Below, piece by piece: positions 2,737-5,937 of a DNA stretch of 64,000 nucleotides. The translations under genes were made by a program, and so were the position numbers. The notes under the pieces were generated by a model. The model was not told where the DNA came from, searched no databases, and saw only the letters and a program-made list of their open reading frames with translations. Origin of the DNA: Olsenella profusa (lineage in GTDB: Bacteria > Actinomycetota > Coriobacteriia > Coriobacteriales > Atopobiaceae); the NCBI RefSeq assembly GCF_016900315.1, contig NZ_JACSNQ010000003.1:62001-126000 (forward strand), in the 5' to 3' direction. Every line of letters starts with the position of its first letter. The first letter of the stretch is position 1.

Positions 2737-3966
<1,230 letters not shown>

Positions 3967-4008
3967 GGTGATTCCCTTCGGTTGGTTGGCTAGCTGCTTG
4001 ACGTGCAT

Positions 4009-4034
4009 ACAAGAAAGCCCCGACGTCGCGGGGC
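4009..4034 (-). terminator. Candidate argG attenuator terminator
   Basis: On the minus strand GCCCCG, loop CGACGT and CGGGGC form a perfect 6-bp stem (4034-4017), followed by UUUCUUGU. It lies between the leader ORF and argG. Bases 4030-4023 (CGCGACGT) can instead pair with 4089-4082 (ATGTCGCG), immediately after the leader stop codon, giving an 8-bp competing helix with one G-U. The U tract is imperfect, so termination strength is uncertain. Confidence 0.5.
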
Positions 4035-4089
4035 GCTTGGAGCCGAGGCTGGCGATAAGAACCGGCAAGCTTGAAGCGACACGCGACAT

Positions 4090-4167
4090 CTAGGGCGTGA
4101 TTCGTCGGTTCTGGCGTCGGGAGGGGAGGAGGGCCGCAGCGGGCGTCTGCGCGCTGTGAACGTTCAT
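4090..4167 (-). CDS. Arginine-rich leader peptide upstream of argG
   Basis: A 25-codon ORF begins with ATG at 4167, nine bases after a strong ribosome site GAGGAGG, and ends with TAG at 4090-4092. Near its end it encodes SRRQNRRITP: four arginine codons (CGA CGC ... CGA CGA) within six positions, three of them the usually rare CGA. It precedes a terminator-like hairpin and argG. This is the arrangement of a ribosome-mediated attenuator: arginine-starved ribosomes would stall at the Arg codons. I know of no described homologue, so it is a prediction from sequence. A chance ORF remains possible, but the ribosome site and codon content argue against that. Confidence 0.55.
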   Translation of the reverse strand: MNVHSAQTPAAALLPSRRQNRRITP

Positions 4168-4284
4168 AAACGTTGGCCTCCTCAAGTACGTTGAGCGGGC
4201 GCGGGCTATTGGCCCGCGGCTGTCTGACGAGGCTGACTATAGACCGCCGCGGCGGCGTGGTCCGGAATTGAATTCGAGTGGAAA

Positions 4285-4320
4285 CAAAAAGGGCCGGACG
4301 CCGAGAAGGACGTCCGGCCC
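4285..4320 (-). terminator. Terminator of the sugar operon after deoC
   Basis: Perfect 10-bp stem GGGCCGGACG / CGTCCGGCCC with a 10-base loop, followed on the minus strand by TTTTTG. It ends the deoC transcript before the argG leader region. Confidence 0.9.
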
Positions 4321-4339
4321 GAGGGCTGCGGGAGCGCGG

Positions 4340-4981
4340 CTATCCGGCCACGATGGCGATGCCGCTGCTCGTGCCGATGCGGTCGGCACCGGCGTCGACC
4401 ATGGCCTGGGCCTCGGCGGCGTTGTGGATGCCGCCGGACGCCTTGACCTTGCAGCGGTCCCCCACGGTCCTGCGCATGAGGGCCACGTCCTCGACGGTGG
4501 CGCCGCCGGTCGAGAAGCCCGTGGAGGTCTTCACGAAGGTGGCGCCCGCCTCGACGGAGAGCTCGCAGGCGCGCACGATCTGCTCCGGCGTGAGCAGGCA
4601 GGTCTCGAGGATCACCTTGACGCAGCGGCCGCGGGCGGCCTCCACGACGGCGGCGATGTCGGCTCGGACCGCGTCGTCCTCCCCGGCGAGCAGCCAGCCG
4701 ACGTTGATGACCATGTCGAGCTCGTCGGCGCCGTCGGCGACGGCGCAGGTGGCCTCGGCCACCTTGCCGGCGGTGGACATGGCGCCGAGCGGGAACCCGA
4801 TGACCGTGCAGACCTTGACCGGGCTGTCGGCAAGGCGCTCGGCGGCCGTGGCCACCCAGCACGAGTTCACGCAGACGGAGGCAAAGCCGTGCTCGGCGGC
4901 CTCGTCGCAGAGGCGCTCGACCTGCTCGCGCGTGGCGTTGGCCTTGAGGACGGTGTGATCGATGATCGATGCGAGGCTCAT
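4340..4981 (-). CDS. deoC: Deoxyribose-phosphate aldolase
   Basis: Class I aldolase cleaving 2-deoxyribose-5-phosphate to glyceraldehyde-3-phosphate and acetaldehyde. The 213-residue protein has the DeoC family pattern: Schiff-base Lys151 in FVKTSTGF, the relay Lys180 in KVKASGGI, and DMVINVGWL at residues 89-97. Its ATG (4981) overlaps the stop of the transketolase C-terminal gene by four bases (ATGA), so translation is coupled. It is last in the PTS-transketolase operon. That setting suggests it works on a product of the imported sugar, or as a related aldolase with another short aldehyde, rather than in nucleoside salvage. No nucleoside phosphorylase is nearby. Confidence 0.93.
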
Positions 4982-5937
4982 GCGAGGCCTCCCTTGACCG
5001 AGGCCACGAGGTCGTCGGCGGTGAGGTGGAAGTCCTTCTGGAGCCACGCGGGGTCGCCCACCTGGCCGAAGCGCTCCTTCACGCCGTGACGGACGAGCTT
5101 GACGCCCGCACCGGCCTCGGCGAGCGTAGCGGCGACGGCGTCGCCCAGGCCGCCGATGACGCCGTGGTTCTCGAAGGTGACCACGAGCTTCTTGCCGGCC
5201 GCCTCGGAGAGCACGAGCTCCTCGTCGAGCGGCTTGACGCAGAACATGTCGACCACCGAGCAGGAGACTCCCTCCGCCTCGAGCGCCTCGGCGGCGTCGA
5301 GGGCCTCGCTCACGAGCTGGCCGCACGCAACGATCAGCACGTCGGAGCCCTCACGCAGGAGGTTGCCCTTGCCGAGCTCGAACGTGGAGCCGCTCTCGTA
5401 GACGGTGCGGACGGCCTTGCGGTTGGCGCGGATGTAGTGGATGCCCTCGAGCTTGGCGAACTCGGCGACGATCCAGCGCATCTGGGTCTCGTCGGCGGCG
5501 TCGCAGACGACGGCGCCGGGGATGGTGCGCATGAGCGCCATGTCCTCCCACGTGGTGTGGGTGCCGCCGTTGGTGCCGACGCAGAAGCCTGGGTCGGATC
5601 CGAAGATGTTGAGGGTGTTGTGCGCGTAGGCGCCCGACAGGAAGATCTGGTCGAACACACGGCGCGTGGAGAAGGGCCCGAAGGTGTGCGTGAACGGGTG
5701 GTAGCCCTCGGAGGACATGCCCGCCGCCACGCCGATCATGTTGGCCTCGGCGATGCCGCACTGGATGAAGCGCTCGGGGTACTTCTTGGCAATGTTGGTG
5801 AAGTGGCTCGCGCCACCCAGGTCGGCCTCGAGGGCGACGACCCGCTCGTCGACGGCCATGGCCTGCTCGATGGAGTCCACCATGACGTCGCGAAGCTCCG
5901 CACCCTTCTTGGTGCGGTCCTTGGCTAGCGTGAACAC
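4978..5937 (-). CDS. Transketolase, C-terminal subunit
   Basis: Pyrimidine-binding and C-terminal domains of a split transketolase, 319 residues. Seen are the thiamine-pyrimidine domain with the catalytic Glu region [15 protein letters not shown] (about residues 60-75), TFGPFSTRR, and the transketolase C-domain with [16 protein letters not shown]. The stop of the N-terminal subunit gene directly abuts this start, so both halves are made together. The enzyme moves two-carbon units between sugar phosphates using thiamine diphosphate. A dedicated split transketolase beside a PTS and a transaldolase-like gene points to catabolism of a pentose or pentitol entering the pentose phosphate pathway. 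Confidence 0.94.

Follow-up and report, generated by a model that had tools for sequence, protein, structure and literature searches.

An arginine-codon leader peptide with two mutually exclusive RNA folds probably restricts argG expression in a gut bacterium mainly to arginine shortage

Introduction

Classical leader-peptide attenuators control trp, his, leu, ilv, thr and pheA. In the textbook trp and his leaders, a protector helix promotes termination in the absence of leader translation, and this helix is dispensable to the basic mechanism. T-boxes bind tRNA directly. The fungal arginine attenuator peptide is a eukaryotic nascent peptide that stalls ribosomes at high arginine and acts on translation and mRNA decay. 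For bacterial arginine synthesis, the textbook regulator is a protein, ArgR.

The portion of PMC1262725 available to us reports leader-peptide attenuators of trp, trpS and leuS in Actinobacteria, names arginine T-boxes and gives the arginine operons of the Actinobacteria examined as without conserved upstream RNA structures; the string 'Coriobacteri' is absent from its text. Leader-peptide candidates in the accessible part of PMC8632094 include those before cysS and aroF, with none for argG. In the Salmonella speF leader ORF orf34, consecutive Arg codons sense arginine through ribosome pausing, and the arginine response is kept with frequent Arg codons (PMC6386406, in the part available).

Amino-acid attenuation is thus already known, and an arginine version at argG would, as far as we searched, be new. 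An arginine leader-peptide attenuator of a bacterial arginine synthesis gene was named in none of the matches listed, which comprised titles and the starts of abstracts, with most subscription papers and all preprints outside the search. A later attenuation survey by the Lyubetsky group could contain an arginine case. A first, sequence-only reading of this DNA held an Arg-codon leader for argG to be undescribed; the literature search agrees as far as argG is concerned, while Arg-codon sensing elsewhere is known from speF orf34 (PMC6386406, in part). Here we describe an argG leader that, judged from its sequence, from comparison with relatives and from folding models, is very probably an arginine-specific, ribosome-mediated transcription attenuator.

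Results

Genomic setting of argG

The window, which is the whole 64,000-nucleotide stretch analysed, carries the regulated gene on the minus strand (2737–3966), as are all leader features described below. The 409-residue product has close relatives throughout the Coriobacteriia and is presumably argininosuccinate synthase, the name argG being taken from the sequence-only reading and not from a family scan. The protein is 100% identical to ArgG of Olsenella sp. An188, and the loci with at least 97% identity come from records named Olsenella, Thermophilibacter, Atopobium or Atopobiaceae; by sequence, the source genome is of the Thermophilibacter/Olsenella type. The minus-strand order is an upstream gene, which we take to be deoC, a terminator (4320–4291), the leader region and argG.

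argH lies on the same strand as argG, 4.4 kb further on (G000:C31:59027–60385), and argC is located on a separate contig. With three carbamoyltransferase-family genes in addition, the genome holds several of the arginine genes. argR is present as well, on a different contig and away from argG. About 20–50 bases upstream of argC (L235; G000:C6, just before 7388) lies TTGCATATTTTGCTGTGAATATGCAA, which resembles an ARG box. This suggests that ArgR may control argC and the leader argG, a split control of one pathway.

At the gathering score, an Rfam search of the whole window returned no family except tRNAs, and on the leader stretch it gave just two lncRNA matches at chance level and no T-box match. 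The leader was also considered as an arginine T-box and rejected, since the T-box covariance model gave no match.

An in-frame leader peptide with conserved arginine codons

Upstream of argG lies a leader peptide ORF of 25 codons, MNVHSAQTPAAALLPSRRQNRRITP (4090–4167), which ends with the stop codon TAG (4092–4090). Its ribosome-binding site, GAGGAGG (4177–4183), stands nine bases ahead of the ATG and is 100% conserved in 25 relatives. The putative regulatory codons, CGA CGC CAG AAC CGA CGA (4102–4119), comprise four Arg codons (CGA 4119–4117, CGC 4116–4114, CGA 4107–4105 and CGA 4104–4102) with CAG and AAC between. The ORF with its GAGGAGG, the Arg-Arg-Gln-Asn-Arg-Arg run and the hairpin that follows had all been noted in the sequence-only reading, and each is present as claimed to within 1–2 bases.

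For comparison, 46 distinct leaders were derived from 180 upstream regions (80 named, two of which lack upstream sequence, and 100 unnamed, partly from the same genomes), leaving out motif-less regions, duplicates and failed hairpin searches (at least L010, L126 and L140). The Arg block shares its frame with a start codon preceded by a ribosome-binding site in 45 of the 46, and the other two frames offer both in just 2 and 4. The lone leader without an in-frame start by that count, L061, was assigned an in-frame ORF by a separate ORF reading. By sequence, the short leader ORF with a ribosome-binding site that an attenuator requires is therefore present, and so, with few exceptions among the 46, is a run of codons for the pathway's amino acid, four Arg of six codons. 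Codon by codon, the block reads CGA (41 leaders), CGC (40) or CGT (4), CAG (45), a variable codon, CGA (all 46), and CGA (37) or CGT (9). In contrast to this block, the N-terminal peptide sequences and the ORF lengths vary widely among relatives.

The constancy of the block bears on nascent-peptide arrest, in which RRQxRR would stall the ribosome in the presence of a small molecule, be it arginine, ornithine or citrulline, and would operate an identical RNA switch. Retention of the Gln between the Arg pairs in 45/46 leaders, and conservation of the block beyond what codon starvation alone requires, would fit such arrest. However, the position after the Gln is highly variable (Asn, Met, Asp, Ala, Gly and Ser among others), the first Arg codon is missing in 5/46 leaders, the peptide N-termini differ, and Collinsella has RRQRAISRRR and the Eggerthellaceae other Arg runs, which leaves CGA codons as the shared feature. 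We consider arrest unlikely and prefer a stall at the codons themselves.

CGA accounts for 2 of the 104 Arg codons in seven window genes, which were our own choice, and for 10 of 1351 across 78 argG genes; it is strongly over-used in the leaders relative to genes. The Arg anticodons among the 49 tRNA genes of the same genome, all typed in an assembly that is 93% complete, are only ACG, CCG, TCT and CCT. Under the usual decoding rules, CGU, CGC and CGA are all read by one ACG (inosine) tRNA, and with the anticodons so limited the inosine tRNA should be the only one to decode CGA. Because these three codons should share one tRNA, charging alone leaves the retention of CGA unexplained, and its presence at one position in 46/46 leaders would favour an arginine-independent slowing at CGA, where inosine-A pairing is poor, so that the leader would sense translation speed, TadA editing or coupling. 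Yet Arg is kept when the codon changes (CGT as the fourth Arg in 9/46, CGC or CGT as the second in 44/46), and the gene downstream is an arginine gene, argG, in 15 of the 17 motif genomes searched for it, although the comparative set was itself gathered upstream of argG. Arginine-independent slowing therefore seems improbable to us, and a response to tRNA-Arg charging remains the preferred reading.

A candidate promoter upstream of the leader

The hexamer TATAGT (4236–4241; 76–100% per-base conservation in 25 relatives) is a likely −10 element of a promoter ahead of the leader. No clear −35 element was seen for it, and a strict sigma-70 consensus scan of 3500–5500 returned no promoter, the proposed TATAGT included. 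Between the leader stop and argG, nothing both conserved and promoter-like was seen in the 25 relatives. The candidate promoter thus likely sits upstream of the leader ORF; a start beyond 4090 was what the sequence-only reading had named as refuting it. In the same relatives, per-base conservation is 84–100% over 4229–4190, and the ribosome-binding site, the start codon, the second Arg pair and both RNA strands of the antiterminator are also conserved; conservation is poor at 4046–4037 and past 4007.

The region also contains a 5´ hairpin, GCGGGC-CAATA-GCCCGC (4201–4217), with a per-base identity of 84–100% in the 25 relatives. It lies close to where the transcript is presumed to begin, and some more distant relatives carry similar-looking hairpins made of other bases. 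A perfect inverted repeat of 6 bp, AACGTT-TATG-AACGTT (4174–4159), holds the leader start codon in its loop, and both its arms are 100% conserved in the 25 relatives. TGTTTC (4286–4281), some 40 bases ahead of the presumed −10 element, shows 88–96% per-base conservation in these relatives and is possibly a regulator site.

Terminator and antiterminator compete for the same strand

The intrinsic terminator hairpin, GCCCCG-CGACGT-CGGGGC (4017–4034), has all 6 pairs invariant in 20 relatives and is followed by the U-rich tail TTTCTTGT (4009–4016, read from the sequence), whose U tract is short. Terminator-like sites number 3 in 2 kb, as against 0.7 expected from shuffles. An intrinsic terminator between leader and gene is thus present in the window; in relatives it is in some cases weaker, and the search of leader-bearing loci did not find one in some, for example L010 and L072.

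The 5´ strand of the predicted antiterminator (4080–4096) overlaps the leader stop and pairs with 4032–4017, a 3´ strand (4017–4032) that is common to the terminator. Inside it, an inner helix (5´ side 4074–4078, paired with 4038–4034) has 73% of cells paired in 20 relatives. The sequence-only reading had proposed an 8-bp pairing of 4089–4082 with 4030–4023, which was to engage the 5´ side and loop of the terminator. This pairing exists, with one G-U pair, as the core of the longer helix 4096–4080/4032–4017; the loop is engaged as proposed, and the 3´ arm of the terminator is also taken up, beyond the extent claimed.

Folding of 4102–4008 gives the antiterminator with the inner helix at −41.9 kcal/mol (z −4.4), and none of 200 shuffles was as good. 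A fold that starts at 4080 (4080–4008) gives the terminator, with an unexceptional stability that 26/200 shuffles equalled, and the fold of 4150–4008 gives the antiterminator again (15/200 shuffles as good). No protector (1:2) helix was found in the window leader, and a ribosome-free model also yields the antiterminator.

The main helix is 97% paired over 20 genus sequences, with 12 of its 15 pairs invariant. One pair is changed on both sides (C-G to U-A) in 2/20, a second has U-G in 15 sequences and C-G in the remaining 5, and a third is unpaired in 9/20. The covariation score was reached by 4/500 shuffles and other covariation measures were not above shuffles; since most pairs are invariant and one is so often unpaired, covariation within the genus is weak. 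Across genera, the evidence on co-varying stems, which had been suggested as a check, is stronger. Among 22 of the 46 leaders, chosen as dissimilar (string similarity <0.85), the cognate antiterminator duplex averages −24.3 kcal/mol, compared with −19.2 kcal/mol when strands are swapped between leaders. The observed mean was reached by 0/20,000 permutations, which is not a true probability because the permutation ignores relatedness and clade composition. Seventeen of the 22 duplexes beat dinucleotide shuffles at 15/300 or fewer, and five did not (L026, L032, L043, L052 and L069).

A second helix, which was to pair the Arg-codon region (4112–4106) with 4064–4058, did not hold up. It is present in the window and complete in 9/20 relatives, and over nine leaders the cognate pairing (−10.0 kcal/mol) scarcely differs from the non-cognate one (−9.8 kcal/mol). 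As it is complete in so few relatives and swapping partners costs nothing, this pairing is probably not functional and was rejected.

The modelled switch falls after the Arg codons and before the stop

To model the ribosome, the leader was treated as covered as far as 12 bases downstream of where the A-site codon begins, an assumed figure, and the remaining RNA was folded at equilibrium, not cotranscriptionally. In the window leader, the probability of the terminator is 0.00 with the A site at any of the four Arg codons, 0.03 one codon past the last Arg, 0.95 two codons past it and 0.98 at the stop codon. The modelled switch therefore lies past the last Arg codon but ahead of the stop, in keeping with the earlier proposal that a stalled ribosome allows the competing helix and a finishing ribosome the terminator.

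An antiterminator favoured by a stall at the codons is thus predicted for the window and, by strict modelling, for 9 of 24 leaders. Counting from CAG, the strict rule required a terminator probability <0.2 when 18 bases were covered and one of ≥0.7 when 36 were; the nine include all five tested leaders with the GCCCCGC-type terminator of the genus. Several of the 24, distant ones, prefer the terminator whatever the ribosome position, and one never forms the called hairpin. L001, the window's own type, gives a terminator probability of 0.05–0.35 at 45 or more bases covered after CAG, a position beyond its stop codon.

Computation gave the component parts and how well they are conserved, the helix pairing and the switch position; from these we infer a start site, stalling, termination and an arginine response. 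Transcription would begin near 4230, and a ribosome would translate the leader peptide while following RNA polymerase. At low levels of charged tRNA-Arg, the ribosome would stall at 4119–4102 with its leading edge kept upstream of ~4090; 4096–4080, or the free part of it, would then pair with 4032–4017, break up the terminator and let argG be transcribed. When arginine is plentiful, the ribosome would reach the stop codon (4092–4090) and cover 4089–4080, upon which the terminator (4034–4017) would form and transcription would end.

Distribution of the leader and its relation to argR

The sequence-only reading had named relatives without the leader ORF or its Arg codons as refuting it, and this check came out largely in its favour. 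The leader is present in 10/10 genus members whose argG upstream region was read and in 51/78 named argG loci, and absent in 27/78. By reading, 47 of the 51 are of the window type or close to it and four are of the Collinsella type; some leaderless loci have an argG that is ~89% identical (L023, L024 and L029). With one mismatch allowed, the motif occurs in 48/140 family genomes, as a single copy in each, and in 24/31 of the same genus, whereas the reversed-pattern control occurs in 1/140. The seven motif-negative genus genomes include G022, whose leader uses other codons. Among 17 motif genomes also searched for argG, the motif lies directly upstream of the gene in 15; the matches in the other two (G028 and G033) are probably due to chance, as they are divergent and no argG was found. 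The only exact match in the window's own genome is the copy before argG, and a viral collection held no exact copy of the 26-base motif.

ArgR was found in 129/149 genomes of the order, the window's own included, and argG in 134. The idea that the leader substitutes for the ArgR protein was rejected given this wide occurrence of ArgR. Besides the window's own genome, argG was matched in 133, and upstream regions were obtained from 100 of these; the 33 left out are Collinsella near-duplicates, four Eggerthellaceae, one duplicate and matches that were incomplete or distant. Over 101 genomes, with the pattern written post hoc and adjacency judged by eye, an Arg leader precedes argG in 44/53 in which argR is absent or not beside argG and in 0/48 in which argR is beside it. 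Nine of the 11 genomes with no detectable ArgR among the 101 have the leader. By these sequence comparisons, the position of argR is a better correlate of the leader than the presence of ArgR. Counts of ARG half-sites upstream of argG gave no signal.

These results also weigh on the plainest account, in which the terminator is accompanied by an unrelated short ORF and ArgR alone controls argG. The genome does have ArgR, together with an ARG-box-like sequence ahead of argC. Nevertheless, argR lies on another contig, the leader block is conserved in frame, and the same-genus genomes G022, G043, G056 and G064 retain the leader with no detectable ArgR. Control by ArgR alone is accordingly the least probable of the alternatives, and we judge it very unlikely beside attenuation through the leader.

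Other leader architectures in the order

In Collinsella and its kin, the leader ends with RRQRAISRRR-stop or similar, and the sequences vary between genomes (L135, L136, L162–L164, L172, L173, L194, L202, L205 and L210). In the minimum-energy fold, the CGACGACGA codons pair >30 bases downstream in 16/17 Collinsella-type regions and with a near segment in L190. Where argR lies just upstream of argG in the Eggerthellaceae, a frame ends with CGA CGA CGN stop (LRRR) in 15/17 regions, for example L182 (G083), L168 (G107), L176 (G087) and L156 (G111); this frame is already open at the upstream edge of the region retrieved and was read as argR by its position. A GTCGTC-type partner, identified by pattern, closely follows in 13 of those 15, often with a T-rich stretch after it, and the same ending occurs in 0/31 genomes of other families with argR beside argG. 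From its sequence, the 3´ end of argR in the Eggerthellaceae looks like an attenuator.

Four genomes with no detectable ArgR, L187 (G123), L192 (G139), L204 (G047) and L206 (G037), carry Arg-rich leaders that end with LRRR, LRRRCA or LRRRRA. These endings are like the last residues of argR in relatives, and the leaders are possibly argR remnants.

We give an even chance to a joint reading in which the Coriobacteriales switch argG through stalling at CGA codons in at least three architectures, namely (A) the window leader, (B) the Collinsella form and (C) the Eggerthellaceae form, with a free-standing Arg leader usually replacing a lost or distant argR. As part of this evenly balanced reading, the CGA codons of the (RRQRAIS)RRR-stop peptide in (B) would themselves supply the 5´ side of a long hairpin. 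In (C), a terminator-like hairpin ahead of argG would take its 5´ side from the last codons of argR, which would make the repressor's own reading frame the leader. On sequence grounds we take the Collinsella and Eggerthellaceae forms as related, still unproven, solutions.

Discussion

If the proposed attenuator operates, gut bacteria would add a tRNA-charging control of argG to the protein control exerted by ArgR, and the switch is readily testable. The strict use of CGA despite a tRNA that CGU and CGC should share would make codon choice in attenuators directly testable as well. The version at the end of argR, if true, would be an unusual fusion in which two regulators share one reading frame.

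Like the classical attenuators, the argG leader has a short ORF with codons for the product of the pathway, mutually exclusive antiterminator and terminator folds, and a biosynthetic gene after them. Unlike them, it would sense arginine, it uses mostly one rare codon (CGA), and no protector helix was found. Arginine T-boxes would share with the proposed leader the sensing of tRNA-Arg charging, but they act without a leader peptide. The fungal arginine attenuator peptide and the argG leader are both upstream peptides on an arginine synthesis gene, and the arginine response in the argG leader is a predicted one. The speF orf34 leader ORF likewise has consecutive Arg codons, according to the part of PMC6386406 available. 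In contrast to the argG leader, it belongs to other bacteria and its target is ornithine decarboxylase, not an arginine synthesis gene; it works through Rho, masking of the ribosome site and RNase G and not through an intrinsic terminator (PMC6386406, same part).
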